IMG/VR virus record: IMGVR_UViG_3300023082_000256
Coordinates: 1 to 39,188 of that record
Direction: 5' to 3' (one strand)
Source of the DNA: a virus
Length of the DNA stretch: 39,188 bases
Positions within the stretch are counted from its first letter, which is position 1. Each line of letters opens with the position of its first letter. Below are positions 5,619 to 26,749 of this stretch, in pieces. The position numbers were made by a program, and so were the translations under genes. The notes below the pieces were generated by a model, which ran no database searches, was not told where the DNA came from, and worked only from the letters and a program-made list of their open reading frames with translations.

Positions 5619-5632
5619 CGTCATTTCCTTTG

Positions 5633-5656: not shown

Positions 5657-5684
5657 GAATTGATGGGTGAAGTGGATCGAGCCG

Positions 5685-6191: not shown

Positions 6192-6221
6192 GTCGTCCTC
6201 CTTATGAAGATGAGAAAGGGC

Positions 6222-7685: not shown

Positions 7686-7726
7686 TGAAGGCTCCTTGCA
7701 AGGTTGAACAAGTTTTGATGATGTTT

Positions 7727-10031: not shown

Positions 10032-10034
10032 CGG

Positions 10035-10694
10035 CTATGTCCTTGGGCGAGCAGTTGCAGTGATGAATGACGCCGCAGCCGCACCGACGACGACGGTTGC
10101 ACGCAACACAGGCACCTGAAAAATGAGGGGACGGGCTGTCGCAACAATTGATGAATGAGCGACGGCGCCGATGTAGGTTTGTCCGGCCGCACGCAGGGTC
10201 GCCCGAGCCGTGAAAACGCGGCTTTTAGGCTTGGCAGCATCGACCGACTGGATAGCAAATCCATTGACCTTCTGATCGAAGATTGGCCCACCGTTTTCGT
10301 AGACAAGATCGATGCGGAAAGTGCCGCGGCGTGAACCGTCCTGCCACCACTCGACCACGGATGCCCGAAGATCGAACGCCGCAAGAGCGCGCTCGACAGC
10401 CCCGAGAGTGCCCTTGAAGCGGTGGACCAGTGGAGACGCTGCAATGACGCGGCGTTTTTGCGCTTCCGTCCAGTCGGCTGACCAGACGTCCACCGAAACG
10501 GCCTGCGCCAGAAATGGCAGAAGTTCGACCGGGCACGTCTCTGGATTCCAGATGCTGACGATCACCGTCGGATCGACGAGCGCGATGCGCGCCAGTTCGG
10601 CCGCCAACAGTGCCCGCTCGATTGGTGTGGAATTGCGCGGCAGCAGGGCGACCGCTACGTCAGCAACGGCTTCGATTGCTTCCGCCGGGGTCAT
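10035..10694 (-). CDS. I: Baseplate protein I (P2 gpI-like)
   Basis: A 219-residue protein starting MTPAEAIEAVADVAVALLP. It has the gpI family core: a helical N-terminus with LLPRNSTPIERALL, then IWNPETCPVELLPFLAQAVSVDVW, then QKRRVI and HRFKGTLGAVERAL, followed by a variable C-terminal half. In P2 gpI is a baseplate/tail-tip component. The ATG at 10694 overlaps the J stop as ATGA; an in-frame TTG at 10700 is possible but less likely. GAAGGG lies about 8 nt upstream. The fibre gene starts 3 nt after its stop. Confidence 0.9.
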   Translation of the reverse strand: MTPAEAIEAVADVAVALLPRNSTPIERALLAAELARIALVDPTVIVSIWNPETCPVELLPFLAQAVSVDVWSADWTEAQKRRVIAASPLVHRFKGTLGAVERALAAFDLRASVVEWWQDGSRRGTFRIDLVYENGGPIFDQKVNGFAIQSVDAAKPKSRVFTARATLRAAGQTYIGAVAHSSIVATARPLIFQVPVLRATVVVGAAAASFITATARPRT

Positions 10695-11740: not shown

Positions 11741-12117
11741 ATCGCCCCCTGGAAAACAACTCTGGTCACAGCATCCTGGGCGATCGAATAATCGCCCAGG
11801 TGGCCACGTGGAAAATAGGTGCCGTGTATTGCAAGCGAGACGCGACCGGAGACCGCAGCCTCGTCAATCCGGCCGGAAGTCATCCGAAATCGAGGCTCCC
11901 ATTTTTCAATGGCGGCAGCCGCAGACGAATAGACTTGCAATATGTTTTTCGGCGTCATCTTTGCGTCGACCAGATCGGGAAGATCCGATCCAAATGTGCG
12001 CCGCATCAAACGCGTGCCGATCGGCGTCGACAGGATTTTCTCGATCGATTGCTGCGTGTGCGCCCAGTCGGTTAGGGACTGGCCGTTCACGCCGCTCAAA
12101 CCTGCGGAATCTGACAT
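11737..12117 (-). CDS. W: Baseplate protein W (GPW/gp25 family)
   Basis: A 126-residue protein of the gp25/gpW baseplate family, related to the lysozyme-like gp25 of T4. Visible traits are IEKILSTPIGTRLMRRTFGSDLPDLVD, which forms the family signature with the RTFGSDL turn, and the later WEPRF segment. It links the baseplate ring to the tail tube. It overlaps J by four bases, so the two are probably translationally coupled. Confidence 0.93.
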   Translation of the reverse strand: MSDSAGLSGVNGQSLTDWAHTQQSIEKILSTPIGTRLMRRTFGSDLPDLVDAKMTPKNILQVYSSAAAAIEKWEPRFRMTSGRIDEAAVSGRVSLAIHGTYFPRGHLGDYSIAQDAVTRVVFQGAI

Positions 12118-12137
12118 GGTCGTTTCTTTCTGTCTGA

Positions 12138-12668
12138 TCAGACAGCGAAGACGCGCGACGAACTTCCAACAGCCACGTCACCCCCACTGTCGAGATCGCC
12201 CTTGCGATGAAGCAGTTGCCCGCCCTCGCCGCCCAGATGAACCTCGCCGTCGAGGACAATTTTTGTGGCTGACAAGCTGATTAGATCATCGCCGAAAAAC
12301 AGCCGGCTATTACCCTTGGTGATCACAGCCTCCGGGCCGTCATGGGGCCTCGGGTTGGCATTGGACGGGGTCGACATATCGATGACTGCATCTGTCATGT
12401 CGCCACTCTCCGACACAACGTCGACCTGCTCGCCCTCGGTGGGAGGGATATGGCTCTTGATCCCGCCAGAGGCGACTTCTTTCCAAGGCAGCCAGGGCGA
12501 CAAATATTCCTTGCCGTCCGGCTTGGAGATCATCACTCGGGCGAGGCCCTTGGCATTGTCGACGGCTTTCACAGTGCCGGTGCGTTTTCGGTTTCTGCCG
12601 CGACGCTCCAGCTCTGCAATCCGGTTGTAGAGATCCGCCATCTGCTCGGGCAGCGTTGACGGGATCAT
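12138..12668 (-). CDS. V: Baseplate spike assembly protein V (P2 gpV-like)
   Basis: A 176-residue protein starting MIPSTLPEQMADLYNRIAE, with the OB-fold segment RTGTVKAVDNAKGLARVMI and the LSPWLPWKEVASGG stretch of the gpV / baseplate assembly V family. The C-terminal portion (repeating short strands such as SLSATKIVLDGEVHLGGEGG) would form the triple-stranded beta-helix spike. This is the membrane-piercing tip. I use the ATG at 12668, which overlaps the preceding stop as ATGA, not the longer upstream extension. Confidence 0.92.
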   Translation of the reverse strand: MIPSTLPEQMADLYNRIAELERRGRNRKRTGTVKAVDNAKGLARVMISKPDGKEYLSPWLPWKEVASGGIKSHIPPTEGEQVDVVSESGDMTDAVIDMSTPSNANPRPHDGPEAVITKGNSRLFFGDDLISLSATKIVLDGEVHLGGEGGQLLHRKGDLDSGGDVAVGSSSRVFAV

Positions 12669-13462
12669 GATGACGGCCCGAACGGCTGGGCATCGATATC
12701 CACTCCGGCGATGTTGGCATCCGTATCGTCGATCGGATTGAGCAGCATCCCGTCCATCTCCGCAACCGTCATGCCATGGCGACGCTGCTCCATCTTCCAA
12801 GAGCGCGGGTCGCCGTCAATCTGCGCAAGCATAACAGCCAACTGCTGCGCCACGACAGGATCGTTGAGCGTGGTGGCTTTCGCCAGGAACTTGCCCATTC
12901 CACTTTCCGGGCGGACCGGCTGACCCCGCACAGGATCGGCCACAAGGTTAACTGTGATCTTCGTCTGATGACCGGCCAGCCGCGTGCCGGCGTCAGCGCC
13001 GCTGGTGCGCAGACGCTCGACCGTGACCATGCTGTTGATGAGGCTGCGAAAGATTTCAGCCCATTCGTTATCCGGGTCGGTGATGACGTCGCCGATCTGG
13101 CGTGAAATGATGTCGAGATAGAACTCAAAAGCGCGGTCGGTCGCGGGGATTGCCAGCCCGATCAGCGTGCTTTCGTCCGTCAACGTGTTAGTTTCGGTCA
13201 TGGCGGCCGTGATACCGGCCTCAAATACGATGTCCGTCGCACCATTGATCAGCATCGCCCGCAAGCTGTTGTCGCTTCCCTTGGTTGATGCTGCATCGGT
13301 GTAAACGGTGATGAATGGTGCATCCTCGTCGGTTTTGAGTGTGCCGTCAGCGTCGACCTGCAGCGATCCTATCTCGCTGTCGAGCACGTTGTCACCCACC
13401 AGCGTCCGCCCCTTGAGGGCTTCGACTGCGGCGATGCGGGCAGCGATTCGAACGAGGCTCAT
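12665..13462 (-). CDS. Virion protein of unknown function between neck and baseplate genes
   Basis: A 265-residue protein in the late operon, starting MSLVRIAARIAAVEALKG. Family is not recognised. Visible features are a short helical N-terminus, then PFITVYTD, which recalls minor tail or tail-terminator proteins, a central charged segment with SLINSMVTVERLR, and a C-terminal acidic tail. By position, between the last head-tail joining protein and spike V, it could be a tail completion or neck component replacing P2 R/S. ATGA overlaps join it to both neighbours, so it is almost certainly expressed with them. Confidence 0.6.
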   Translation of the reverse strand: MSLVRIAARIAAVEALKGRTLVGDNVLDSEIGSLQVDADGTLKTDEDAPFITVYTDAASTKGSDNSLRAMLINGATDIVFEAGITAAMTETNTLTDESTLIGLAIPATDRAFEFYLDIISRQIGDVITDPDNEWAEIFRSLINSMVTVERLRTSGADAGTRLAGHQTKITVNLVADPVRGQPVRPESGMGKFLAKATTLNDPVVAQQLAVMLAQIDGDPRSWKMEQRRHGMTVAEMDGMLLNPIDDTDANIAGVDIDAQPFGPSS

Positions 13463-13842
13463 TTTTCACCAAGCTCCAGAATGAGCCGCGTATGATGGCG
13501 GTCATTGACGAAAAGGACTTCAAAGGCGGGCTCTCCGATACGGGAAACCGCACGTAAAGCATCACCCTTTCTAGGAAGCGGGCCCAAGTAGGTAGTGCGG
13601 TCAATGTGCAGCTCGCCCTTGCCAGCAGAGATCCTTGCCAACCAGGTCTTGTTGGAGCCGCCGTCCATACCTCCACCTTTGGGCGGTCCAGTCCGAAGCA
13701 CCGCTTCAAACTGAACCTGAGGCCGCAGCGGGTCGGTGACGCCGTCCTTCATCGGAGAGAGACGGATGGGCTCGGCAAATTTGAGATCAACCGATGCCAT
13801 CACCCGGTCGCGCAGTTCATGAAAGCGAGCAGCTACTGGCAT
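13459..13842 (-). CDS. Head-tail joining type protein, family uncertain
   Basis: A 127-residue protein starting MPVAARFHELRDRVMASVD, preceded by GGCGGAG. It has an N-terminal helix followed by a mainly beta protein (EPIRLSPMKDG, VQFEAVLRTG, LHIDRTTYLGPLPRKGD, FEVLFVNDRHHTRLILELG). Size, fold pattern and place after the capsid genes match lambda gpFII-like or other head-tail joining proteins, but I cannot name the family with certainty. The upstream codons of the same frame are not used because they overlap the previous gene. Confidence 0.6.
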   Translation of the reverse strand: MPVAARFHELRDRVMASVDLKFAEPIRLSPMKDGVTDPLRPQVQFEAVLRTGPPKGGGMDGGSNKTWLARISAGKGELHIDRTTYLGPLPRKGDALRAVSRIGEPAFEVLFVNDRHHTRLILELGEK

Positions 13843-13855
13843 CGGTGTCTCCGCC

Positions 13856-14128
13856 CTACGTTTCCGACGTTTCCAGAAGCGTTTCTTGCGGGATTTCTTC
13901 CTCGGATACGATAGTATCCTCGGCGCGGGCCGCAGCGATGTCGAGCTTTGTGGCTTCACGCACGGAATTCGAAGCCTTTAGCTCGTTAAATTCTTTCTGC
14001 GTCGCTTCGAAGATCTGGCCTGGCTTGATCACGTTGATCTTGGCTGCCTTGACCACTCGGCCTTGATCATTGCGCTTCCCGGCTTCTTTGCAGATGTGCA
14101 CGGTGTTTAGGGCGACAACTTTTACCAT
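13856..14128 (-). CDS. Small head-module protein (lambda FI position)
   Basis: A 90-residue protein starting MVKVVALNTVHICKEAG. The N-terminal half is beta-rich and basic, with a KPGQIFEATQKEFNELK segment typical of small head-tail connector or ribosomal-like SH3 turn proteins; the C-terminal 30 residues are strongly acidic. I choose the ATG at 14128 because an AGAGGA site lies about 7 nt upstream; the in-frame ATG at 14146 has no such site. Position after the major capsid gene matches lambda FI, but sequence identity to FI is not evident. Confidence 0.6.
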   Translation of the reverse strand: MVKVVALNTVHICKEAGKRNDQGRVVKAAKINVIKPGQIFEATQKEFNELKASNSVREATKLDIAAARAEDTIVSEEEIPQETLLETSET

Positions 14129-14159
14129 TGTACTGTCCTCTGACATTCAAGTGGGGGAA

Positions 14160-14186
14160 GACGTCGGCAGCTCGGCCGCCAACGTC
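14160..14186 (-). terminator. Strong intercistronic hairpin after the major capsid gene
   Basis: On the minus strand a 9-bp stem (GACGTTGGC / GCCGACGTC, one G-U pair) encloses a 9-nt loop, 8 nt after the capsid stop. The following bases are TTCCCCC, too poor in T for a good intrinsic terminator. It may be a weak attenuator or a 3' stabiliser of the capsid mRNA, either of which would raise capsid protein relative to the neck proteins. Confidence 0.5.
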
Positions 14187-14194
14187 AGGATTGC

Positions 14195-15253
14195 TTAAAG
14201 CAGCACAGTTGCCTTCAGCGTTGCATTGGGATTGACCGGGACCATCAACGGAGCTGACTGCGTGACGATCTGTTCGATCGCGACGTCTCCGCTGACGATA
14301 TAGTTTCGCGGAAAGATCGGAATGGCTTGGAACTGCGCGTTGACGTCCTGAATGGCGCCAAAGCAGCGGTAGCCCTCAACGTTCGGACCCGACAGAACTA
14401 TGTCCTTCGACGACATGAACGGCGTTACTGTGCCGCCAGCCGTGTAGTAGTCGTTGTAGACATAGACATCCAAGTTGGCACCGAGTCGGCCGACGAAGGT
14501 GGCTTCATCCGTTCCGATGATATCGCGACGCAGGTCCGTAGTGCTGCCACGGACGTCGGAACGCAGAAGACCATAGAGATCGCCGCCCTCCTGCATTTCG
14601 AATTCCATGGCGCCCCACACATCCACCCCGACTGTGAGCCGGTTCGGGCGCCCACCGAACTCAGCGAGGTGCATCATATTGGACCAGGCCGACAGGTTGC
14701 CCTTGATGGAAACACCGGCATCACCCCAACGTGCGCCGGTACCAAGCACGATCGTGTGGCCAGCAGCACGGCCAAAATCGATCAGCTTGGAGGGATAGTC
14801 GTCACCATCGATCGTGACTTTACCGTCGATTGCCGCCTTTGCAGCGAGCCATTCCCAGCGGCGCTCGATAGCTGTGCGATGATACGCGAGAATATCGGTC
14901 TTGATCGCGTCATAACGCGCCTGCGGGGAGGATGCTTCCGGACCCAACAGGGTTCCCGGTCGGCGCTTCAAGACGCGAGATGGGGTCACGGGGTCGGAGG
15001 GCTTGATGTAAGCCGGTTTGAAACGCGCAACCCGACCACCTTCTTCATAGATCGGCCGACCTTGCGCCAACGGCGCGACGAAAGGTGCAAGCTTGCGACC
15101 AACGCTCGGGATCTTTTCGAAGTCGATGTATTCGTCAGTGGACGAAATTTCGTTGGGGAAAAGCAAGTCCAGCCAGTATGTGCTGCCGGTTTCCGTTTCG
15201 CGATAGACATCGACGAGTGTGTGGGTGTCCCACAGTTCATAACGCTCGAACAT
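14195..15253 (-). CDS. Major capsid protein (lambda gpE family)
   Basis: A 352-residue protein starting MFERYELWDTHTLVDVYR. It fits the lambda gpE major capsid family (HK97 fold), with the N-arm motif FP-x-E (LLFPNEISSTDEYIDFEKI), the RRWEWLAAKAAIDGKV helix, and the C-terminal segment with NP. The lambda E length of 341 residues is close. It sits directly after the decoration gene, as in lambda D-E. Both the order and the length make this a confident call. Confidence 0.95.
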   Translation of the reverse strand: MFERYELWDTHTLVDVYRETETGSTYWLDLLFPNEISSTDEYIDFEKIPSVGRKLAPFVAPLAQGRPIYEEGGRVARFKPAYIKPSDPVTPSRVLKRRPGTLLGPEASSPQARYDAIKTDILAYHRTAIERRWEWLAAKAAIDGKVTIDGDDYPSKLIDFGRAAGHTIVLGTGARWGDAGVSIKGNLSAWSNMMHLAEFGGRPNRLTVGVDVWGAMEFEMQEGGDLYGLLRSDVRGSTTDLRRDIIGTDEATFVGRLGANLDVYVYNDYYTAGGTVTPFMSSKDIVLSGPNVEGYRCFGAIQDVNAQFQAIPIFPRNYIVSGDVAIEQIVTQSAPLMVPVNPNATLKATVLL

Positions 15254-15277
15254 TTGGATCTTCCTTTTGGCCAGACG

Positions 15278-15679
15278 TCAGAGACGTTCGCGGACGATGA
15301 TGTTGGTGGGGGTCGGCGAGCCACGGAAGGCCGCAACCCTCTTTGCGGACGTATCGTAATCGGCGTGCCAGTTCAGAGCGGCCGGATTAAAATTTCCAGC
15401 CCGGAAAATGGCAATCCGGTCCGTCACGCCAGCACCCGTCACAACCGGCGCAGTGGTTACGCCGATCGGCACCACGGCGGTTGCACTGGTTTTGGCGAGG
15501 ACCAGGAGCCCGGCCGCGAGACCTACGACCGAAAACGCGGGAAGAGTGGTGTTTTCGCCGACTGGGAAGTCTTCGGTGACAGGATGAGGGATGGCCGAAT
15601 TGAACAATTCGGTTGATGCAAAGCCGTCGCTGATCTCAAAACCAGCAATACCAGCCTCGCCATAAGGGATATTATTCAT
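15278..15679 (-). CDS. Capsid decoration protein (lambda gpD family)
   Basis: A 133-residue protein of the head decoration (HDPD) family. It has a flexible N-terminus, the PVTEDFPVGENTTLPAFSV stretch and the C-terminal beta segment with AALNWHADYD. Lambda gpD (110 residues) binds as trimers on the capsid and stabilises it after expansion. Position between protease/scaffold and capsid gene is exactly that of lambda D. Confidence 0.9.
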   Translation of the reverse strand: MNNIPYGEAGIAGFEISDGFASTELFNSAIPHPVTEDFPVGENTTLPAFSVVGLAAGLLVLAKTSATAVVPIGVTTAPVVTGAGVTDRIAIFRAGNFNPAALNWHADYDTSAKRVAAFRGSPTPTNIIVRERL

Positions 15680-15706
15680 TACCTTTTTCCTTTGGACTGG
15701 GAGTTG

Positions 15707-16105
15707 TTAGGCTCGCTTGGTGGTGCCTGTGACGGCGCGATAGTTTGCAAGTATCGCACTTGCCTTGCTTGGCTTGTCGTCCCCGCCGGACGTGTTGAGG
15801 CCCGAGCCGTTCAGGCGTCGACGCTCCAGCTCTGCAACTTCGTCCGGCGCATTGCCGGCGGCGGCTTTAGGCAATGTCAGAAGGATGGTCTTCGCGGCGT
15901 CGGGCGTCATACCGGCGGTGCCAGCAAGCGCAGTCGCTAGCGTTTCCCGTCCGGCAACCTCTGGCAATGCCATGATGGCATCCTTGCGATCGCGTTCGTC
16001 CTTTTCCGCCTGAAGGGCGGCAAGGGCGTCCGCGTTGGTCTTTGAGGCCGACTGCAAAGCGGCCAGCTCGTTAGCGAGCTGATCCGCACGTTCTTTATCA
16101 GTCAT
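15707..16105 (-). CDS. Nested capsid scaffold protein from an internal start (lambda Nu3-like)
   Basis: Inside the protease gene an in-frame ATG at 16105 has AGGAGA five nt upstream, one of the best ribosome sites of the late operon. It would give a 132-residue protein (MTDKERADQLANELAALQ) consisting of the heptad-rich, Ala/Glu/Lys-rich C-terminal domain only. In lambda, gene Nu3 starts in the same way inside gene C and supplies the scaffold. The domain is separated from the protease by a Pro/Ala/Ser linker. The protein is inferred from the site and the precedent. Confidence 0.65.
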   Translation of the reverse strand: MTDKERADQLANELAALQSASKTNADALAALQAEKDERDRKDAIMALPEVAGRETLATALAGTAGMTPDAAKTILLTLPKAAAGNAPDEVAELERRRLNGSGLNTSGGDDKPSKASAILANYRAVTGTTKRA

Positions 16106-16786
16106 AGGATTCTCCTGTGTTTGACTGGGTGGAGCGGCGGAGACCGCCGGTTTGGTTGCACGAGGTTTCCATCCGCGTGCCGTCGCGATCGAAGCGATGC
16201 GCTCTGGCACGTGCTTGTAAGTTTCGATGGCAAATGTGATGGGCTCGATATCGGCCGTTGCATCCGCGACGCCGATACGGTCTGCGAATCCTTCAGAGAC
16301 GGCTTCTTGCCCCGTCAACCACCGCTCTGTTTTCATGACCGTGCGCATCTCTTCGACCGATTTCCCGGTCTTCTTTGCGTAGATCTCGGCAGCAGCATCT
16401 CCGATTGCGTTTAGCTGATTGATTTTTTTGACGTGTTCAGCCACGTCTCCGAACGTGATGCCCGCAGGGTCGTGAATCATCATCGTCGCACCCAGGCTCA
16501 TGGTGACGGTCTTGCCTGCCATTGCCAGCAGACTGGCGGCGCTAGCTGCCCAGCCCTCGACGACAACGTCAACACGACCGCCGTGATTAGCGAGGGCCGA
16601 GTGAATAGCAGCCCCTTCGGAGGCAGCTCCCCCCCCACTGTTGACGCGTACAATGACGTCAGCGTTTCGGCCCACGGCAAGGAGAGCCATAAAGACGTCG
16701 GCCGAAGAAAAACCGTCCTCTTCCCAATAGTAGCCGCCGACCGTGCCTGTCAGCACGATCTCGTTTCCGTTCACAATGCATGCCAT
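15707..16786 (-). CDS. Prohead protease (ClpP/S14-type, lambda gpC-like) with scaffold domain
   Basis: A 359-residue protein. Residues 1-180 are a ClpP-fold serine protease: the oxyanion Gly-rich segment SGGGAASEGAA, nucleophile Ser82 in GWAASAAS, His105 in MMIHDP, and an acidic residue about Glu154 in the TERWLTGQEA segment, where ClpP has Asp. Residues 228-359 are the scaffold domain, also made separately from the internal start at 16105. It processes the scaffold during head maturation. The start at 16786 (MACIVNGNEIVLTG) is chosen for the conserved N-terminal strand; upstream codons look non-coding. Confidence 0.92.
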   Translation of the reverse strand: MACIVNGNEIVLTGTVGGYYWEEDGFSSADVFMALLAVGRNADVIVRVNSGGGAASEGAAIHSALANHGGRVDVVVEGWAASAASLLAMAGKTVTMSLGATMMIHDPAGITFGDVAEHVKKINQLNAIGDAAAEIYAKKTGKSVEEMRTVMKTERWLTGQEAVSEGFADRIGVADATADIEPITFAIETYKHVPERIASIATARGWKPRATKPAVSAAPPSQTQENPMTDKERADQLANELAALQSASKTNADALAALQAEKDERDRKDAIMALPEVAGRETLATALAGTAGMTPDAAKTILLTLPKAAAGNAPDEVAELERRRLNGSGLNTSGGDDKPSKASAILANYRAVTGTTKRA

Positions 16787-16796
16787 TTCATTATCC

Positions 16797-17054
16797 TCAG
16801 TACGGTCGCATGATGCCGCGGATGGCATATCGGGTGCGTCTAGGGCGATCACCTTGGCTGATTAGACAATTACGCGTTGCCTCATCCAGCGCCGCTTTGA
16901 CATCGGACAGCTTGGCGGTTGCATACTTGGCCATATCCTCGCCAAAGCGTGCCTCGGTCACCATCTCACCGGTGAGCAATGCCATCTCAACTTCGCGCAA
17001 CTTGAGCGCACGGGCGCACCAGTCGACAACAGGCGCAAGTCTTTCGTTCATCAT
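16797..17054 (-). CDS. gpW-like head-tail joining protein
   Basis: An 85-residue protein starting MMNERLAPVVDWC. The central segment (LREVEMALLTGEMVTEARFGEDMAKYATAKLSD, positions about 18-50) matches the gpW form: a helix, LLTG, a short two-strand turn, then a helix. Lambda gpW is 68 residues and joins head and tail. In lambda W lies between A and B; here it follows the portal gene, so the order is changed. The ATG overlaps the portal stop as TGATG. Confidence 0.7.
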   Translation of the reverse strand: MMNERLAPVVDWCARALKLREVEMALLTGEMVTEARFGEDMAKYATAKLSDVKAALDEATRNCLISQGDRPRRTRYAIRGIMRPY

Positions 17055-18724
17055 CACGCTGCGTCTTTCTGCACGTCGCGCGTGCCTTCGGTCGCAGCAC
17101 CTTGCGGCCCTGCGCCGCCCTGTGAGCGTCCAAACGGATGTGGAATTCCGTTCGCTTCCATGAGTTTCTTCTCCGCGCCAATAGCCACGATCTGCTCCTG
17201 GGCATTTTTCCCACGCTTCGCGCAGATGTCGGCATAAGTGGACAGACAAGTTTCAAGCTCGATCTTGTCGGCCAATGCTGACTTGTAATCATCAGCACTG
17301 GGCGCTGCTGGGCCATTCCACTCGGCCTGATACACACTCTCGGGATCTCGAAGAAAGGCACGAACGCCGCCCTTAAACGGGATGCGACCTTTGACAATCA
17401 TTTCTTCGAGCCACTTCTCGTAGATAACCTGCAAGAACGGTATCGCGATGCGAGTCCTACGGCGCATGACGATCGGCCAGATGCTCGCAATAGCCATGCG
17501 AACAGACGAGTAGGTTGCGCTCGAATGATCCATCGCCAGAGATTCGTAGGTAATTCCAAGACAACGGGCGAGCTCTCGCAAAAGGTTGCGGAAGAATGGA
17601 AGATACTGATCGCCGGGTGTGCCAGCGGTGTGCATCTCGAATTCTTCGCCTGGGCCAAGGTGATTTATCCGAGCAGAATCTGCCATCGAGATCCCTTTTT
17701 CCTTCAAGGCACCGATTCGGGCTCCCCAGACGTCGATCAGATCTCCAGCGATACCGCCGGCGTATTCGGTCCAGTCGCCGTTAACATCGGCGTCCCATCC
17801 TTTTGGCTCCTCCATATCGGCCAACGTCTGGATTGCCTGAAAGGCCGTCTCGCTAGGCTCTGGGCTCTTGATTGTCGCCGCAAAAACCGTCTGCAACAAC
17901 ATCGTAGCTAGAGTTGCGTCTGCGAGCTGATCCGACTGCGCAGCAATCTTCAACGCTGGAGCAACAGGCGAGATACCCCTGGGGCTGTTGAGATTTTCAC
18001 CACGATCCATGACGTGGATGACCGAGTGCGCAGCTATGTCCCTATTATAATCCAGGCCGTCCCGGGTTTCGCGAAACCGATATTTCGAAGGGCGGCCGTA
18101 GCTGTCGTGAAAAATACCCTGTTCTAACCCCTCGAACGCCGATGTCTTTTGCGGGCAACGGTGAGGTGCGACCAGCGAAATCTTGGTAGAGGTTTTAACT
18201 CCAAGGCGCTTCGTTTCACCATCGGACAAATAATCGAGGATCCCGAACGCTTCACCGTAAGCAAGATAAGATCTGATGACCCCGTCAAGCATTTCAGCAA
18301 TCGTGGCCTTGCCAGCAAGGTCACACTCATTCTTGTTCCACGCCCAAGTCCGCCAGGCCTCTTCCACTTCACGACACCAGTCGGTGGCCTGCTTAGGCGA
18401 ATAGCCGAACTTTTTAAGCTTCGCACGGCAATTGAGCTTCAGTTCTTCGCCAATAGTATCAGTTAGAATCTGCTGCGCAGCGCCAGCAAGCCAACCAGAG
18501 TTTTGCATAAAATCCACCGCGAGCGCGGCAGCGCGCGCAGCAGATTCCTTGACGTCTATTTTGGCATCGCGGGTGATGGCCCGGCGCATCGCAAGTGTGC
18601 CGGCACTATCGCCGCGAAGATAGCGGTTTGTAGGAGGCAGCGAGGCCTTGGGCCGCGCGACTGCCGCAGAAGCGTTCGGGCCTCTTACGGCTTTAGTGCG
18701 GCTCGCGGGCTTGGTGATCGTCAT
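17054..18724 (-). CDS. Portal protein (lambda gpB family)
   Basis: A 556-residue protein of the lambda portal family. Visible segments are the N-terminal NSGWLAGAAQQILTDTIGEELKL region, the YGEAFGIL, the VIHVMDRGENLNSPRGISP block (the loop preceding the portal wing), and the C-terminal LARCLGITYESLAMDHSSATYSSVRMA signature. It forms the dodecameric DNA channel. I use the ATG at 18724, which overlaps the large terminase stop as ATGA and has GGAAG upstream, rather than the ATG at 18739. Confidence 0.95.
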   Translation of the reverse strand: MTITKPASRTKAVRGPNASAAVARPKASLPPTNRYLRGDSAGTLAMRRAITRDAKIDVKESAARAAALAVDFMQNSGWLAGAAQQILTDTIGEELKLNCRAKLKKFGYSPKQATDWCREVEEAWRTWAWNKNECDLAGKATIAEMLDGVIRSYLAYGEAFGILDYLSDGETKRLGVKTSTKISLVAPHRCPQKTSAFEGLEQGIFHDSYGRPSKYRFRETRDGLDYNRDIAAHSVIHVMDRGENLNSPRGISPVAPALKIAAQSDQLADATLATMLLQTVFAATIKSPEPSETAFQAIQTLADMEEPKGWDADVNGDWTEYAGGIAGDLIDVWGARIGALKEKGISMADSARINHLGPGEEFEMHTAGTPGDQYLPFFRNLLRELARCLGITYESLAMDHSSATYSSVRMAIASIWPIVMRRRTRIAIPFLQVIYEKWLEEMIVKGRIPFKGGVRAFLRDPESVYQAEWNGPAAPSADDYKSALADKIELETCLSTYADICAKRGKNAQEQIVAIGAEKKLMEANGIPHPFGRSQGGAGPQGAATEGTRDVQKDAA

Positions 18725-20844
18725 GAATATGACTTCCATGTTTTGCGAACCCGGGCTTTACCGGGCGTGCTCGATTTCACAGGTGTCTTTTTCTGTGGCT
18801 TAACGAACGGACTTTCATCTGCAGCTGCAAACAGATCCGGTTCCGCGTCTGGCACACCGTGCAGGTCACGGATGAGATCGGCCCACCGATCGAGCGTTAG
18901 GCGGCGCTTGCTCTGCAGGTGCCAAGCCAGCGCGTAGGCGTAGACCGTGGCGTCGAACCAGTCGTTCAACCGGCCAACGATTTTCTTCCATTCCCGGCCG
19001 GCCTTCGGATTGATAAGCCGGCGAGCGCGACGGCTGACGCTGGCCCGGGCCTCCTCATCAGGATCGACAAGCCGTTCAGCCGTCATTTCCTTGGCAAAGT
19101 CCTCATCGCAAAGGTCCGATGCGAAGTGGATTGTGCCGCGCGGCCACTGGCCAAGGTCGTTTGGTCCCTGCACCAGGTTGGCAAGACCGGCGGTGACGGC
19201 GGTTTTCACGTCGTAAAGACCGACTGGATACAACAGCACCTTCGCTATGATACGCTTGCGATGGTCCTTGATGTCTTTTTTGACCGGTGAACCGAGCCAT
19301 GGCAGGCCCTGCGTATGACGGCCGTCGAGCGCGTAAACATTAGGACGGCCGGCACAGAAGCGGTAAACCCGATCGGTGGCAAAGCCGGAATCGACCCCGC
19401 TGAGATCGATTCCTTTTTCCTTGCCTCCCGACGCTGTCGGATAGGTTTTGGCCAGCGCATCGGAAAGCGCGATCCATGGCTCGTCGTCTTGGTCAGGCTT
19501 TCCCTCGAAGATTTGGCGATCGACAAGGCAGAACTGATCACGCGGCCCGAAGGCATAGACCAGGTTCTTGATGCCATACCCCTGGACGTCGGACGCTGAA
19601 ACGACCATCGCCGCCCATGATGGAATGAAGCCGGTCGGTATCTCTGCTTTTTTAGCTGCCTGTACGATTTTCTCCCATTCGACGGCGACGCCGCCCGGAT
19701 CGTAAGGCTCGGCCAGATCCTGCTGGAAAAACGTCCGCAGTTTCGTGGTGTCACCCTGCGCATCCAGCCACTTGGCCCAGATGTCCGACCATTTTTCCCG
19801 AGGCGCATAGGCCGCCCAAAGGTGATAGCTTGGTTGCCAGTCGCGGCATCTGCCTTCACAAGGTGGGCAAACCCACCGGTCAACCTCACCAGCGGGGATA
19901 AACCACGGCACTTGGTCGCCACCATCTGCAATTCGGCGTGCAATCCAATGCGCCCGGCGCTCCATCTCAGGTTTGTGGCCATCGAGGATGACGCCGTCGC
20001 AAGACAGGCAGCGCATGTGCACCGGCAAGCCTTTGTCCGGGTCCGCCCCGCGCATCTGATCGAAGGTCAGCGGCTGGAACACATCGCAGTGCGGGCAAGG
20101 CATATATCGGTAGCGCTGGTCTCCGTTCTCAAAGTCATCCGAGATGGCGCACTCGCCGAAAATCCCCGGCGTCGACCCCTGCCATTCCTTTGCGAGATCG
20201 CCGTACATTTTCTGCCGGGCACGCGCCTGGTCGCGAGGGCTTCCTCGACCATCCACGTCCCGCGGATAACCGGTGACTTCGTCCATAGCCAGATATTTGA
20301 TGGAAACCATCTGCAGGCCCTTGGAAGAACCTGCGTTGACGATCTGGCAGAACCCCCCCGCGTAGCGCTTGAAGGATGTCGTGCTGCCCTGCTCGTCCCG
20401 GCTGTTGACCGGCATGACCTTGTGCGAAATGCGCTTCGACGCCTCGATCGTCGGCTGCAACTTTACGCGGTTAAACTTCGTCGCCTCTTCCAACGTCGGC
20501 AGAACGATCATCATCGAGCCGGGAGACTGGTCGACGATGAAGCAAAACCAGTTCTCGATCGCGGTCGACTTGCCGAGCTGCGCTGCCCAGCGGCAGGTAA
20601 CCCGCCGCGCCGGGTGATCCGGATGCAGGCAGTCCTGCGGTTCGCGCAGATACGGAACGCGATCGGTGCGAAACTGGCCAGGCCACGGCGAACCGGATTC
20701 CTCGGACACGTAACGGTACCGGTCTGAAAATTCGCTGATGGTCAGCTCATCCAACGGCCGGCTTGCCGCTTCGAGACCCTTGAACAGGACCTGAGCACCA
20801 AGCACCAGGTCAGGAAAGCGGTCGCGAGCGCTGTGAAACGTCAT
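18721..20844 (-). CDS. Terminase large subunit (lambda gpA family)
   Basis: A 707-residue ATPase-nuclease. The Walker A-like segment is WAAQLGKST at residues 86-94 and Walker B is YLAMDEV at 184-190. A zinc-ribbon-like pair CPHC (250-253) and CLSC (279-282) and a further Cys pair near 330 follow. The C-terminal nuclease domain begins near ASDVQG. This is the gpA type, which cuts at a cos site and makes cohesive ends. It is translationally coupled to the small subunit (ATGA) and to the portal gene (ATGA). Confidence 0.95.
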   Translation of the reverse strand: MTFHSARDRFPDLVLGAQVLFKGLEAASRPLDELTISEFSDRYRYVSEESGSPWPGQFRTDRVPYLREPQDCLHPDHPARRVTCRWAAQLGKSTAIENWFCFIVDQSPGSMMIVLPTLEEATKFNRVKLQPTIEASKRISHKVMPVNSRDEQGSTTSFKRYAGGFCQIVNAGSSKGLQMVSIKYLAMDEVTGYPRDVDGRGSPRDQARARQKMYGDLAKEWQGSTPGIFGECAISDDFENGDQRYRYMPCPHCDVFQPLTFDQMRGADPDKGLPVHMRCLSCDGVILDGHKPEMERRAHWIARRIADGGDQVPWFIPAGEVDRWVCPPCEGRCRDWQPSYHLWAAYAPREKWSDIWAKWLDAQGDTTKLRTFFQQDLAEPYDPGGVAVEWEKIVQAAKKAEIPTGFIPSWAAMVVSASDVQGYGIKNLVYAFGPRDQFCLVDRQIFEGKPDQDDEPWIALSDALAKTYPTASGGKEKGIDLSGVDSGFATDRVYRFCAGRPNVYALDGRHTQGLPWLGSPVKKDIKDHRKRIIAKVLLYPVGLYDVKTAVTAGLANLVQGPNDLGQWPRGTIHFASDLCDEDFAKEMTAERLVDPDEEARASVSRRARRLINPKAGREWKKIVGRLNDWFDATVYAYALAWHLQSKRRLTLDRWADLIRDLHGVPDAEPDLFAAADESPFVKPQKKTPVKSSTPGKARVRKTWKSYS

Positions 20845-21464
20845 TGCAGGTGCTGCCCGTTCTCAACAAAATCGACCGGCTGCTCACCGGTTTCCGCTTG
20901 GCGACGCATGGCATCGAGGCGCAACAGCATCTCGCGGTTGAATATCCCAAGCCCTGTGCGGCTGAATGCCTTGAGAGCGATGCGCAAAACACGCTCATCC
21001 CAGCCATATTTAAGCGACAGGGTTGCCGCTTCCGTCTCGATGGCCCGCTCAAAACCGCTCATCATCAGCGCGATTGCATCGCGGCCGCCCTGATCAACCT
21101 CGGATACGACGGTCAGCTCATGCCGCCGCTCTGCAAGATCCATCTCTCGAAGCTCTGCGTCGGCTTGCGCCTTGCGGGCCGCGCCATCGGACTGAGATCC
21201 GGAAAACCGCGTCGACGTCGCGCCACGTTGGGCCGGAGCCTTGGTCGGCGTCACCGTCGGGCGAATGCGGATGTTCTCGCCGCGGTGCGCAAACAGCGCG
21301 TTGATCTCAACTAGGTTCGACTTGCCGTCCGGCTTCAGTGGCAAAGCCTCGCCGTGCTGCTTCAGGTATCGCGACAGACTGGATCGGTCGATCCGATCGC
21401 CAGCATCGGTCAACCGTGCGGCCGCCTCGGTTATCGAGACCCATTCCTCATCGCCAGAAGCCAT
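20841..21464 (-). CDS. Terminase small subunit (Nu1-like)
   Basis: A 207-residue protein whose N-terminus (VSITEAAARLTDAGDRIDRSSLSRYLKQHG) is a winged HTH of the Nu1 type, used to bind cos. A Pro/Thr-rich linker and a helical C-terminal half (AELREMDLAERRHELTVVSEVD and on) follow, which would bind the large subunit. It is a little longer than lambda Nu1 (181 residues). Its start is next to a 172-base gap that may hold cos. Confidence 0.85.
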   Translation of the reverse strand: MASGDEEWVSITEAAARLTDAGDRIDRSSLSRYLKQHGEALPLKPDGKSNLVEINALFAHRGENIRIRPTVTPTKAPAQRGATSTRFSGSQSDGAARKAQADAELREMDLAERRHELTVVSEVDQGGRDAIALMMSGFERAIETEAATLSLKYGWDERVLRIALKAFSRTGLGIFNREMLLRLDAMRRQAETGEQPVDFVENGQHLQ

Positions 21465-21636
21465 CGTGTTTCATCCGTGCATGACACGCGTGCAGCACGT
21501 GTGCAGCGTGTACCGCTTTCCAACAGTGCAACTGCCCAAGACCCGCAGTCGCGCGCTTCCGTGTGGGGTAAATCCCGGGAAACGGTCCCTAAATGGGGGG
21601 GGGCACATGTCCGTTTGATGATAATCGACCCTTGGG
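21465..21636. other. Noncoding gap before small terminase; possible cos region
   Basis: The gap between gene Z and the small terminase is longer than any other within the late operon. It has two GTGCAGC direct repeats (21490-21496 and 21501-21507) inside a partly palindromic run, a GGGA-N5-TCCC dyad next to CCCGGG at 21574-21589, and a run of nine G at 21595-21603. In lambda, cos and its terminase binding sites lie immediately upstream of Nu1. No match to a known cohesive end is claimed. Confidence 0.3.
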
Positions 21637-22218
21637 TCAGCCCATAAGCTTTCGAAGCACCTGATCGACCCTGATGGGCAGCGTTGTGTTGACCTCGGTC
21701 TCAAAGGCCTGCTTCGTCATGCCTTCGATCATTTCCTTTGGGATGAATACCCCAGAGCGCGCGAACGTATAGTGACGACCCGACGATCTGTTGCGGAACA
21801 TCACATGTCCATCCCATTTCGAAACCGTCTTGCGATCAGGGAATGTCCCTGCTCTCATGAAGGTGCGCGGATACAGCGTCTTCTTGCCGAATGGCGTTGC
21901 CACCACACCCGCATCCGTCTCTCTCGGGTTGAGATACTTGAGCCGAACATTGCCGCCTCTCGATCTCAGATCATAGGTCAATCTTCCCGAAAATGCCCGG
22001 TTCGTGTTCTCTACCGCTTTCAGGATAACCCCACGCTTCAACCCGGTCTGCTTGGTGAGCGCCCGGACAACCCGTGTTTTCGCTCTATCGCCAACCTGAT
22101 TGACGATACGCGGCAGGACTTTCGGGAACTTCTCGTTCAAAGCAAGAATTTGCTTTTGGAACTTATGAAGCCCGCGAACATCTTCCCAGCGAATATCGAA
22201 GGTAGGAGCACCGGCCAT
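21637..22218 (-). CDS. Gene Z-like minor tail / tail completion protein
   Basis: A 193-residue basic protein starting MAGAPTFDIRWEDVRGL, with AGGTG five nt upstream. Helical N-terminus (FQKQILALNEKFPKVLPRIVNQVGDRA) then a basic stretch with LTKQTGLKRGVI and a beta-rich second half matches the prophage minor tail protein Z family (lambda gpZ is 192 residues), which helps join the tail to the head. In lambda Z lies far downstream with the tail genes; here it is the first gene of the late operon. A TTG at 22236 in frame is a less likely start. Confidence 0.75.
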   Translation of the reverse strand: MAGAPTFDIRWEDVRGLHKFQKQILALNEKFPKVLPRIVNQVGDRAKTRVVRALTKQTGLKRGVILKAVENTNRAFSGRLTYDLRSRGGNVRLKYLNPRETDAGVVATPFGKKTLYPRTFMRAGTFPDRKTVSKWDGHVMFRNRSSGRHYTFARSGVFIPKEMIEGMTKQAFETEVNTTLPIRVDQVLRKLMG

Positions 22219-22482
22219 ATAAGCACCTGCATTCAAGAGGATGCCGCCATTACAGCGGCGAGTTCATGATCGCCTCCTATCACCCGGATGGAGCGCTGAT
22301 TGCTTAGCTCGCCTATCTATAGGAATGCAAAAGGCGACCTCTCGGCCGCCTGTCGTCATTCTAAATTTTGGTCATAGCGGTAGCACGTGCCCTGAATCGG
22401 TGTCTCGCTTGGGAGACTGTCGGGGCCGGGTTCCTGACGCGTAATCGCTAAGAGCAGGATGATCCGTTGGAACGATTTGTAG
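22219..22482. other. Intergenic control region between NusG-like gene and late operon
   Basis: This 264-base gap holds the terminator at 22329-22351, a small perfect dyad CCTAT-N2-ATAGG (22312-22323), a GTCTC-N6-GAGAC dyad (22402-22417), and a strong AGGAGG followed by a 5-codon frame at 22267-22250 that runs into a second 5-codon frame. I cannot assign a convincing sigma-70 promoter. It is the natural place for a late promoter, a pause site or a recognition site of the NusG-like protein. Confidence 0.5.
22329..22351 (-). terminator. Rho-independent terminator before the late operon
   Basis: On the minus strand an 8-bp stem (AGGCGGCC / GGTCGCCT, one G-U pair) with a GAGA tetraloop ends in TTTT. 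It lies 132 nt after the NusG-like stop and 111 nt before gene Z. Transcription of the early operon would stop here unless it is overridden, so it is a good candidate target of antitermination. Confidence 0.75.
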
Positions 22483-23193
22483 TCATGAAGTTGAAAGCAT
22501 TGCAAGCGGAATCATGATCGGCGTCTTTCGTCCGAAAATATCCAGCTCGACAATCGGCGTCCCCTTTCCAGCACCCCCAAACGCAATGACCGGACCGCAG
22601 AAGCCGCCGAACGGACCGCTGTTTACCCTGATCATTTGGCCGTTTCCAAAGGTCCTGTGATCAACCTGCACCGCATCAGGCGCAGCAACGGCAGCAGCGG
22701 ATTGATCGACAACTTTCGCGTCCCAATCATAGGCCCCAGCACATGCCATCTGTCGGAAACTACTTATTGTTTCGTCCGTCAGGCGTAGAGGACGCTCCCA
22801 TCCGCCGACGACGCTCCCGACGTAATTGAACGACATCAAAGCTTGCAGAGCATCCGCAGTCGGCACACAACGAACAAGCGTATATCCATTAAAAACAGGC
22901 TTGTCGGAAGGCGGCAGTATCGTCTGCCGGCGTCGCCGCTCAGGCCCCTTGCAGGTCGGTACGCAGGCCTCAATACCCGCCTCATCAAGCGACTTTTCCA
23001 CAGCCCACTCCTGCCCAGAAGCAACGGAAAGCACCAACCACTTGGCATCCATCGGCCTTTCGGCAGCGATTCGCCGGCTGGCCGCATCGATCTGCCGCGC
23101 GCGAATCGCCGCTTCCAATGCGATTCGCTCAAGCATCCGCTCGCCTTTGTCCGAAACCCGACCACCAAACATCCTGCCATACTGCATGGTCAT
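22483..23193 (-). CDS. NusG/RfaH-like antitermination protein
   Basis: A 236-residue protein. Residues 1-50 are a helical, Arg-rich extension. Residues about 51-150 form a NusG N-terminal domain (KWLVLSVASGQEWAVEKSLDE, then VPTC, VFNGYTLVR and the VGGWERPLRLTD turn). Residues about 182-236 are a KOW domain with the diagnostic GPFGGFCGPV and IFGRKTP motifs. NusG-family proteins bind the RNA polymerase clamp and alter pausing and termination. It is the last gene of the early operon, coupled by ATGA to the initiator gene, and is followed by a terminator and then the late genes. This suggests the late gene activator role. It is not the host nusG: it has the extension and no rpl/sec neighbours. 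Confidence 0.85.
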   Translation of the reverse strand: MTMQYGRMFGGRVSDKGERMLERIALEAAIRARQIDAASRRIAAERPMDAKWLVLSVASGQEWAVEKSLDEAGIEACVPTCKGPERRRRQTILPPSDKPVFNGYTLVRCVPTADALQALMSFNYVGSVVGGWERPLRLTDETISSFRQMACAGAYDWDAKVVDQSAAAVAAPDAVQVDHRTFGNGQMIRVNSGPFGGFCGPVIAFGGAGKGTPIVELDIFGRKTPIMIPLAMLSTS

Positions 23194-24356
23194 TGCCCCA
23201 ATCCCTCGTTAACCCGCTTCTCAAAATCTGCGATTGCGTCCTCAGGCTCGCCTGCCGGCAGGAAAAGCCATTCCAGCCGACCGGCATCAGGCACCCAGGG
23301 CCATCCCATGCGTTCGTGAAATGCCCGCCATCTGGCAGCCAGATCGCTGTCGCGGCGCACCTTCTCGAAGCTTTCGGAGATCGCAAACAGCTGCGGCGGC
23401 ACGGTCACGCCCTGCGCGCCCTCGGCTCGCTGATCCATCGTGTTGACCTTCGGCCAGCCATATTTTTCACGGCGCTGCCGTTCGATCCGCCTTGCCACCT
23501 CGCCTCCGGCAGCCACCTGGTCACGCTGGAAACTGGTCAAGGGCGGCATGGCCGGCGACATCGGTTTCAGCAGTTCGGCAAGCCGCATGGCGTGCCATGC
23601 CCGGCTAAATGGGTTGTGGACCGATGGCGGCGCGACGTCGGATCTCGGGTCGGAAAGCTTTTCCCAAGCCTTCGAGGCGAGATAGGTGCTGGCTGCAAAC
23701 CATTTCGTGCGACCGCTAGCCTTCACCGCCGCGATATAGGCCGGCGTGCGATCGATGCAGGCAGCACGCTCGTCAGCCGTCAGAGCGAACCATGCCTTGC
23801 GCGCGTTGTCGTCGCCATCGCTGACGAAGGTCGGCCACGTCGGATGCCAGCGTTTGAAGTCCCGGTTGATCCGCTTAGGATCTTCCTTGTCCAAAATCTC
23901 GCCTGCGCCCTCTCTCTCAGGTAATGGTTCTAATAATGGTTCTATTACGGTTCGGGTGTCATGGTGACACCCGTCTCCGTCGTCAGTGTCACCCGTCTCT
24001 GTCGCCAGTGTCACGGGTGACATGGTGACACCCGTGACATGGTGACACCCGTCTACCGGTGTTTTCGCGTCAGGAAGCTTCTCGATCGCAGTCAAATCGA
24101 AGTCATAACGTGTCGCAGATCCGGGGCGTCCGGAGGCCTCACGAACGACAACCAGAAGGCCTTCCTCGACAAAATCACGCAACGTCCGCTGGACGGTCCG
24201 CTCCGAAAGTTCTGTCTCAAATGACAGGCGCGCCACCGTGGGCCAAATTCCTTTGCCCTCGTCGTCCGCAAAATCAGCCAGGCGCACCGCCAGCATTTTT
24301 CGGCTTGCAGACCCGAGCTGCGCCTTAAACAGACGGCTCATGATATAAATACTCAC
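23190..24356 (-). CDS. Replication initiator-like HTH protein with internal iterons
   Basis: A 388-residue protein. It starts at GTG 24356, which overlaps the methylase stop as GTGA and has AGGGAGG seven nt upstream. Residues about 5-95 are a winged HTH (MSRLFKAQLGSASRKMLAVRLADF, ELSERTVQRTLRDFVEEGLL), as in phage replication proteins of the O type. Residues about 102-134 are encoded by tandem DNA repeats and read DGCHH twice. The rest is helical and basic (KRWHPTWPTFVSDG, KWFAASTYLASKAWEKL) with a final Trp-rich segment. An initiator with repeats inside its gene repeats lambda O logic. A regulatory HTH protein is the alternative. Confidence 0.7.
   Translation of the reverse strand: MSIYIMSRLFKAQLGSASRKMLAVRLADFADDEGKGIWPTVARLSFETELSERTVQRTLRDFVEEGLLVVVREASGRPGSATRYDFDLTAIEKLPDAKTPVDGCHHVTGVTMSPVTLATETGDTDDGDGCHHDTRTVIEPLLEPLPEREGAGEILDKEDPKRINRDFKRWHPTWPTFVSDGDDNARKAWFALTADERAACIDRTPAYIAAVKASGRTKWFAASTYLASKAWEKLSDPRSDVAPPSVHNPFSRAWHAMRLAELLKPMSPAMPPLTSFQRDQVAAGGEVARRIERQRREKYGWPKVNTMDQRAEGAQGVTVPPQLFAISESFEKVRRDSDLAARWRAFHERMGWPWVPDAGRLEWLFLPAGEPEDAIADFEKRVNEGLGQ
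23957..24053. repeat. Iteron-like repeats, putative phage origin
   Basis: Five related units of about 17-22 bp share the core GGTGACACC or its complement. The 17-mer TGACATGGTGACACCCG occurs at 24018-24034 and again at 24035-24051 with no gap. TGTCATGGTGACACCCGTC at 23957-23975 differs from the unit at 24035-24053 by one base in 19. Diverged units in the opposite orientation lie near 23981-23997 and 24006-24022. Each unit contains a small dyad. The repeat lies inside the HTH protein gene, as the lambda ori iterons lie inside gene O. Confidence 0.65.
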
Positions 24357-26749
24357 TCCGCAGCCTCCCTGAACGGCTGATCCACGAAACCCCACTCAAG
24401 CGGCGGACGATAGTTTTCGACGATGACAGCGGCGGCCGGGCGCCGGCAGACGGAGTTCCCGATCTTGTGGCGCTGTTCGGTCTCGGAAAGGGTGCCACCC
24501 TTGTAGGGTGCAGCAAGGATATAACTGTCGGGAAAGCCTTGCGCCCGCGCCAGCTCGCGCGGCGTCAGCATCCGCATACCGATATCGATGATGATGTAGG
24601 CTTCGCCTTTGATCGAGAGGGTTACGAACTCCCCCCCATCCCAGCAGCCATGCCGCCGCATAAAATCCGCTACCTGCCGCGCTCGGTCGCATTGCTGCTC
24701 GGACAACGGCGGCGGCGCAGCATCCGCTTCTGTCAGCCCAAACCGCGCCTTGGTGGGCACTGCAAGCATTGGATCGGCCACTGTCGCGCTCTGGCCACCA
24801 GTGGAATAATACGCGGTCATCAACGGCAGGGTAACGACGGCCGAATGCTGGCCGCTGGCACACACGGCCGGGTGCGCATCTGCGCAGCTGCCGTCCCTGC
24901 GGTCGGATCCCTTCAGCGATAGCATGTTGGCCGCCATCAGCTGCATCTTGCCACTGCCGCCAGCCGTCACGGCGTTGGTCGGTGCATCCATGGCCTGCCC
25001 GACAGAATTGCCGAAATCCTGCTTGATGAATGTTGCAGCGACAAGCTGCTGCTGTGAACCCGCCTGCATTGTCGTCGACAACGGAACGTCGATGTCGCGG
25101 CCAACCGGCGCCCGAGGCCCGCCGTTGTGCTGGGCGACGTAGACGGCAGCCAGCGATTGCGTCGGATTGGCGGTCACGGCGCTAAGGGCATCCTCGGCGC
25201 TGCGCCCGGCCCGGAAATATTCCGAGCCGTCCGGCTTGCGGTCGTTATTGTTCTGCACAACGAACGGCGCCACCTCGGCGGCCACCACCTGATTTTGATC
25301 TTTGGTCGATGCTGCAACCGTATGGAGCGGCACACCGGCAGCCCGCGAGCTGCCACCGTGCTGACCGAGCGAGACAAATGGCGCCACCTCGGTAGCCGCC
25401 AGTCCGATCGGCGACGCGCCGCCAGGGCGCTTTATAAAGCTGTTGGCGGTGACCGTACCTAGCGCGTCGGTGATCGCCCTTCCGACTTGGTCACCACGAA
25501 ACGAAACCACGTGCGGCGCGATCAGAGCATGCCGCGGCGCAGTGGGAACGGTTGTTATGGGCTGATCGACTGACGCCGACCGATCCGTTCCGCCAGCGCC
25601 TTTGCCGTAGTAAGCCGAAAGGTGTGGAACGACGATGCCATGGGCATCGCGCGCGCGCGTCACCGTCTGGAATGGCTCACGCAACCCCTGTCCGCGGAAC
25701 CCCTCACCGCCATGATTGCACGTGACGATAAACGCCTCGGCCGCTTCAAGCACATGCCGTTTCACACCTTTGGCAATCCGCGCGTCCGTCTTGACGGCCA
25801 ATGGCCGTATGATCCGCACGCCAGTCGCTTTCGTGTATTCCTTGGCTTCTGCCTTGGTGAGGAAGATTGAAGGCGTCGGACGATCGAAATCAATAATGTC
25901 CGCAGCCACCGGCCACGGCAGCAGCTTGCCCGCCTTCACAGCATCGGACTTTGGCGCCGCGTGCGTCGGCTTGGGCCATTTCACACGCTTGCCGTCGCGC
26001 CGCATCACCATATGCAGGCGACGACGGATTGTCGGGTCGCCAAATTCGCAGGCGACCAGCTCTTTCCAACCGACCGAATAGCCAAAAGCGGCAATGGCAT
26101 GCACGAAGCGGTGAAACACTTCGCCCAGCCGGGTTTCGTCCCGCTTGAAGCCGCCGTCCGGATGATCGACCAGAGGGCTCCATTTCGAAAACGCCGGGAC
26201 ATTTTCCAGAAAGATGGCGCGTGGCCGCTGCCAGTCCGGCAGCTCTTTCAGCCAGCGGATCAGCACCCAGGCGAGATCACGCACCGAACGTGACGTGATC
26301 GGCCCACCCTTTGCAGGGGAATGGTCACGGCAATCCGGCGAAAGCCAGAGCAGCCCGAAGAAATCGTCTCCGAGCAGCTCGCGCATTGAGACCTTCCAGA
26401 CATTGTGCGGCAAGTGCACCGTGTCGCGATGGTTGATGGCGTGCATCGCGAGTGCCGGCTCATCATGATTGACCGCAAAATCGACATCGAGGCGATGTCC
26501 CACCGGCAACAGCCCCATCGCTTCCAATGTTTCGAATGCCAGCTGAATTCCGTTGCTGGCGCCACCGCCCCCCGCAAATGAATCCACCGACTTTGTCCGG
26601 CGCGGTCCGAATTTGGCTGGCGGTGGCGGCTCCATCCGCACCTTGGCCGCGCGTACAAAGCCTGTCGGGCCGAGCGGCCGAAACAGTTTCTTCGTTGCAG
26701 GGATTTCGGTCCCGAACAGGTCGCCATCCGTGTTGACGGAAATGTTCAT
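24353..26749 (-). CDS. DNA cytosine-C5 methyltransferase with a repetitive insertion
   Basis: A 798-residue methylase. Motif I is VDSFAGGGGASNG (about 55-67), the catalytic Cys140 is in WLSPDC (SPDC in place of the usual PPC), ENV is at 182-184, an RRRL motif VIII-like at 242-245, motif IX is ELARAQGFPDSY and motif X KIGNSV near the C-terminus. Between residues about 340 and 670, where target recognition lies, are about seven diverged units with F/A-V, a His-Gly-Gly-like turn and a P-x-x-TVTA end. It probably protects phage DNA from host restriction. The start is coupled (ATGA) to the 99-residue gene and the stop overlaps the initiator start. Confidence 0.9.
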   Translation of the reverse strand: MNISVNTDGDLFGTEIPATKKLFRPLGPTGFVRAAKVRMEPPPPAKFGPRRTKSVDSFAGGGGASNGIQLAFETLEAMGLLPVGHRLDVDFAVNHDEPALAMHAINHRDTVHLPHNVWKVSMRELLGDDFFGLLWLSPDCRDHSPAKGGPITSRSVRDLAWVLIRWLKELPDWQRPRAIFLENVPAFSKWSPLVDHPDGGFKRDETRLGEVFHRFVHAIAAFGYSVGWKELVACEFGDPTIRRRLHMVMRRDGKRVKWPKPTHAAPKSDAVKAGKLLPWPVAADIIDFDRPTPSIFLTKAEAKEYTKATGVRIIRPLAVKTDARIAKGVKRHVLEAAEAFIVTCNHGGEGFRGQGLREPFQTVTRARDAHGIVVPHLSAYYGKGAGGTDRSASVDQPITTVPTAPRHALIAPHVVSFRGDQVGRAITDALGTVTANSFIKRPGGASPIGLAATEVAPFVSLGQHGGSSRAAGVPLHTVAASTKDQNQVVAAEVAPFVVQNNNDRKPDGSEYFRAGRSAEDALSAVTANPTQSLAAVYVAQHNGGPRAPVGRDIDVPLSTTMQAGSQQQLVAATFIKQDFGNSVGQAMDAPTNAVTAGGSGKMQLMAANMLSLKGSDRRDGSCADAHPAVCASGQHSAVVTLPLMTAYYSTGGQSATVADPMLAVPTKARFGLTEADAAPPPLSEQQCDRARQVADFMRRHGCWDGGEFVTLSIKGEAYIIIDIGMRMLTPRELARAQGFPDSYILAAPYKGGTLSETEQRHKIGNSVCRRPAAAVIVENYRPPLEWGFVDQPFREAAE

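Follow-up and report, generated by a model that had tools for sequence, protein, structure and literature searches.

Many rhizobial phages appear, from comparison of their sequences, to turn on late genes with their own copy of NusG. In the analyzed window (the whole stretch of 39,188 nt, IMG/VR virus record IMGVR_UViG_3300023082_000256), the gene of a NusG paralog is followed by a conserved hairpin element, an intrinsic terminator and the late operon (Table 1), and the phage NusG probably boards RNA polymerase at this hairpin signal. The probability that the late genes are switched by NusG-based processive antitermination, in place of the Q protein of phage lambda, is estimated at roughly 0.8.

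Table 1. Location of the features discussed in the text (positions in the window)
Feature	Position	Strand	Evidence
HTH replication initiator, directly upstream of the NusG-paralog gene and overlapping it by 4 nt	23190..24395	-	profile match; order in five phages
Phage NusG paralog, 236 aa, proposed late-gene antiterminator	22483..23193	-	Pfam/PHROG/NCBIfam, AlphaFold2, Foldseek
Accessory helix TCCTG/CAGGA enclosing boxA-like TGCTCTTA (22449-22456)	22432..22459	-	9 sequences only, moderate support
Conserved 61-nt element, only strong copy in the window	22373..22433	-	covariance model R1, 72 bits, E 2e-18
Covarying hairpin in the element: 7-bp outer helix (one C-A mismatch in the window), internal loop, 5-bp inner helix, loop of 6 nt	22389..22426	-	covariation and fold
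GTGCTACCGCTATG, nearly invariant motif GTGC[NNNN]GCTATG	22373..22386	-	alignment; compared with RfaH ops
Intrinsic terminator stem-loop, then TTTTG; kept in relatives between the element and the first late gene	22332..22351	-	terminator scan, fold
First late gene, tail completion/neck, PHROG 27	21637..22236	-	profile match
Late block: terminase, portal, protease, capsid, tail	2291..22236	-	profile matches

Phage NusG Paralog

The gene product is a specialised paralog of the NusG/Spt5 family. The NGN domain was recognized by the Pfam NusG profile (PF02357, E 6e-14, residues 51–147), PHROG 6386 ('transcription antiterminator') matched residues 45–233 (5.3e-30), and the alignment with TIGR00922 reached residue 228, so that the C-terminal KOW is present. 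The NCBIfam models of NusG, UpxY and LoaP also matched, all below their cut-offs. According to the curated models, the protein is neither RfaH (TIGR01955, 17.4 bits vs. a cut-off of 144.5) nor LoaP (NF033641, 30.5 bits vs. a cut-off of 125). 3D modeling in AlphaFold2 (mean pLDDT 89.7) shows N-terminal helices (residues 15–37 and 40–45), the NGN domain (about 51–151) and a KOW beta-barrel (187–235), the latter being a prediction that need not show RfaH-type fold switching. The Foldseek search with this model returned NusG, RfaH and a NusG–RNA complex. Pfam, PHROG, TIGR00922 and AlphaFold2 thus agree with an earlier note on this DNA, which had proposed a NusG-type protein that combines NGN and KOW domains with an N-terminal extension.

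Both phage-type and housekeeping NusG are present in host genomes. In the constructed tree, the host NusGs formed a single clade (support 100/100) and the phage NusGs fell outside it. Since the host NusG is a separate clade, a recent pick-up of the housekeeping gene by the phage was rejected. As for the N-terminus, the sequences in alignment A5 start with MMQH, and M3 and Q4 are more than 90% conserved in a protein that averages 31% column identity; the cause may be that the gene overlaps that of the initiator, or that the tip is functional.

The family of this gene, under an antiterminator label, has been reported in all phiLM21-like prophages (PMC12429752). In the passages found, the label is an annotation only, given with no target, element, terminator or mechanism. 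In addition, prophage-borne rfaH-like genes were mentioned earlier (PMC7593976).

Gene Order and Late Block

NusG homologues with 26–37% identity were found in Agrobacterium phage Rivra, Nostoc phage Nsp-JY10, Rhizobium phage PPF1, and Sinorhizobium phages phi2LM21 and phi3LM21. The order of initiator, NusG and gap is constant in all five, with NusG coming directly after the HTH initiator, and terminase and head genes come next after the gap in JY10, phi2LM21 and phi3LM21, whose records extend past it. In the window, the same-strand genes located 3' of the terminator encode neck/tail-completion, small and large terminase, portal, protease, decoration, capsid, sheath, tape measure and fibre proteins. 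The earlier note had described about 22 kb of late genes on the same strand; the strand and the content stand, but the block ends near position 2291 and its length is therefore about 20 kb. The same note placed the NusG-paralog gene last among the early genes, before a clear intrinsic terminator, and this terminator is indeed the top match of the terminator scan (28-nt hairpin, −16 kcal/mol, z −4.3). Lambda Q has the same map position, as the last early gene, with a terminator and then the late operon after it.

A second stretch shared with PPF1, GGAGGCG..CATGA.CTC.GC.GCTGTAATGGCGGCA.CCTC, was noted before the first late gene, after the terminator, in the window (about 22235–22285, minus strand) and in locus L005.

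Structure of the Conserved Element

The likely recruitment element, which was absent from the earlier note, has the consensus of an outer helix GCCCTGA/TCAGGGC, an inner helix GYCTC/GAGRC, three nucleotides and GTGC[NNNN]GCTATG, followed by the terminator. When the gap was compared among relatives, the element proved far better conserved than the NusG protein. Its pattern occurs once in the window, against 0.01 copies expected, and no further copies above noise were detected there. None of the 4227 Rfam families matched the element region at E ≤ 1, and a known RNA family was thereby rejected as its identity.

In 81 sequences, 93.4% of pair cells were standard, and double changes numbered 54 vs. 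15.3 in shuffles. On four of five measures, none of the 500 shuffles reached the observed covariation, and slid controls scored far lower. The inner helix provides the cleaner evidence, because the exact pattern used for searching left little of the outer 3' arm free to vary. In addition, the loci found through the protein carry new compensated outer stems, namely CCGTGA/TCACGG (L170), GGCCTGA/TCAGGCC (L181) and CCCTTA/TAAGGG (L195). The mini-loop (NNNN of the motif) is mostly GAAA or TACN. Single-sequence folds with a clipped 5' arm were left out.

In the short-gap class, most relatives have TCCGG/CCGGA as the accessory helix, and relatives of this class have TTCTTA at the place of the boxA-like TGCTCTTA within it. 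In the long-gap loci (e.g., L005–L007), the 110–150 nt gap before the hairpin contains possible extra stems, CCCT...AGGG around two hairpins, which RNAalifold did not resolve on a mixed alignment.

Distribution of the Element and Its Linkage to NusG

At least 120 viral contigs carry the element according to the exact-pattern scan; the genome scan returned 34 contigs of named genomes, all rhizobial. To look for the element outside Rhizobiaceae, 289 genomes of the class were sampled, and only the starting genome matched. A NusG ORF lies upstream of the element in 117 of 128 loci; in most readable remaining loci, the stored sequence starts too near the element to show it.

The linkage was assessed by searching the same 200 whole genomes independently by protein alignment and by covariance model. 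As a result, 22 element matches were obtained, and for 21 of them a same-strand phage-type NusG lies 55–130 nt upstream (20 of these pairings come from the search tables, and that of genome G176 from fetched DNA). No element beside the housekeeping NusG was found in the 200 genomes. A search that started from NusG revealed the element in all 16 top-scoring protein loci (L163–L178) and also in L181. By sequence, the element is linked almost exclusively to phage-type NusG. A weak element-like match (27 bits) in genome G030 (L198, 1495–1541, minus strand), with no NusG nearby, is probably due to chance.

A divergent clade of phage-type NusG has neither the element nor a convincing terminator. It includes loci from the same host family (L179, L180, L182–L184, L188, L190), in whose leaders different hairpins occur, e.g., GGTGAGGC..GCCTCACC. 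Two loci, L181 and L076, carry the element without a clear terminator, and both group with the divergent clade in the tree; because of them, read-through of that terminator cannot be the sole function. Their condition may represent an earlier or different role of the element.

Terminator and Limited Promoter Space

Under strict criteria, a terminator follows soon after the element in 117 of 129 loci, compared with 8% of random positions, and for most of the 129 the distance is no more than about 45 nt. Relaxed criteria gave 123 loci vs. 21% of random positions. In L065, L083, L114 and L123 an insert is present, and the terminator still lies directly before the late gene. The inserts of L083 and L114, located between the element and the terminator, contain a T-loop-like string, GGTTCGAATCCC; a tRNA-like nature of these two inserts was rejected, as ARAGORN finds no tRNA gene in them.

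In most loci the late ATG comes 14–17 or 39–43 nt after the terminator, and a separate late promoter there is therefore unlikely, with little or no room for it in most relatives; the space in the window itself is about 90–110 nt. A promoter scan of positions 14000–30000 returned 5 sites vs. 4.7 in shuffles, which accords with the claim of the earlier note that no strong promoter is visible and on its own weighs little.

Proposed Late Switch and Alternative Explanations

According to the proposed mechanism, RNA polymerase from the early promoter would transcribe the replication genes, with the NusG-paralog gene last, and then reach the element. Here the polymerase would meet a nascent hairpin and GTGC[NNNN]GCTATG, a putative pause and non-template-strand signal, 10–30 nt before the intrinsic terminator. 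At the early stage it would stop at the terminator. Once accumulated, the NusG paralog would be recruited at the element and would use its NGN domain to grip the polymerase clamp, and the modified complex would pass the terminator and continue along the late operon. A dedicated NusG antiterminator is strongly favoured by comparison because of the fixed gene position in five diverged phages, the terminator before the late start, the NusG-linked element, and the joint absence of element and terminator in the divergent clade. The replacement of lambda Q by a NusG paralog, suggested in the earlier note, thus gains comparative support from gene position, terminator, element linkage and the divergent clade. 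At somewhat less than even odds, and hence tentatively, the site may be composite, uniting a nascent RNA hairpin of the LoaP kind with a non-template-strand pause motif of the RfaH kind, and would then define a widespread, undescribed class of late switch that replaces lambda Q.

One alternative is a variant modelled on lambda Q, which loads at the late promoter on an early elongation complex and then takes it through the terminator. A late promoter would lie in the 80–150 nt that separate the hairpin from the NusG stop codon, and NusG would load there and pass the terminator. The length of the gap would allow this, and read-through of the terminator would still be required; however, promoter-like scores in the gap were not above those of shuffled sequence and no conserved −35/−10 pair was seen, so that a sigma-70-like promoter was rejected as a candidate. 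This argument is a weak one because alphaproteobacterial promoters are poorly modelled, and we consider the variant unlikely. The inverted repeat could also be a DNA operator of a late-gene activator or repressor, with the NusG paralog serving another role, such as anti-Rho or translation coupling. Inverted repeats are common as operators, and the count of G-U vs. A-C in the inner helix (10 vs. 5) makes no decisive split between an RNA hairpin and a DNA inverted repeat. However, the loop of the main hairpin ranges between 1 and 9 nt and the spacing of its arms between 18 and 27 nt, unlike a dimer site, which favours a hairpin. Moreover, the 3' motif lies outside the repeat, the element occupies the sense strand, with NusG before it and the terminator after it, and no other regulator is always adjacent. 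An operator is accordingly judged improbable.

Two further explanations are given very little credence. The element might be an autonomous antiterminator RNA that needs no phage protein, as in the case of the HK022 putRNA (PMC9378689), and a structured leader is indeed present in the phage; against this, the element is nearly always found beside NusG, with a single weak match standing without it. The NusG paralog might instead act on its own transcript, by autoregulation or pausing, and not on the late genes, since the element and the terminator come directly after its gene. Lying after the gene, they would therefore not control NusG synthesis; the terminator separates the NusG gene from the late genes, for which no other entry point is visible.

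What was already known is the antiterminator annotation of the gene, which databases give with no mechanism. In the open-access literature, to which the search was confined, no description of the element, its NusG linkage or a phage-encoded NusG late switch was found. If the NusG-based switch is true, a NusG-family solution is added to the late-gene control of temperate phages, and the bare 'antiterminator' label in many rhizobial phages gains a testable mechanism. A cis-element absent from Rfam, with more than 100 natural variants, would also become available for testing target choice by NusG paralogs. If the composite site is real, two known recruitment modes of the NusG family would be joined in one place.

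Comparison with Known Systems

The job proposed for the phage NusG is the same as that of the lambda Q/qut/tR' system. Lambda Q is unrelated in sequence to NusG and loads at the late promoter, whereas the NusG-paralog locus has no visible promoter. The HK022 putRNA resembles the element as a structured phage RNA tied to terminator read-through, but put acts in cis, in early operons and without a protein (PMC9378689).

The ops site of RfaH forms, in the non-template strand, a hairpin whose tetraloop is closed by a C-G pair (PMC5995543). The phage motif, GC[NNNN]GC..TATG, bears a resemblance to it, namely GC-tetraloop-GC with a closing C-G pair, then T|G. RfaH is a NusG paralog recruited at a paused complex, and a similar recruitment may be supposed for the phage paralog. 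In contrast to RfaH, the phage protein scores nearer NusG, its KOW is a predicted beta-barrel, and a covarying hairpin precedes the motif.

As for LoaP, its dfn leader contains a small hairpin and an intrinsic terminator, and the LoaP/dfn-mln system of Bacillus velezensis shares with the phage a NusG paralog and a leader hairpin followed by an intrinsic terminator (PMC12691694). LoaP promotes read-through of a long operon (PMC12691694), and the same job is proposed for the phage paralog. The differences are that LoaP serves antibiotic operons of Gram-positive bacteria and binds a UNCG hairpin, whereas the phage system has a late operon, another hairpin with the 3' GTGC[NNNN]GCTATG, and an N-terminal helical extension of the protein. 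A LoaP-type UNCG tetraloop was not found in the phage element, whose main hairpin loop is variable. LoaP is the closest functional counterpart: the phage switch would work like the LoaP system without being a member of it.
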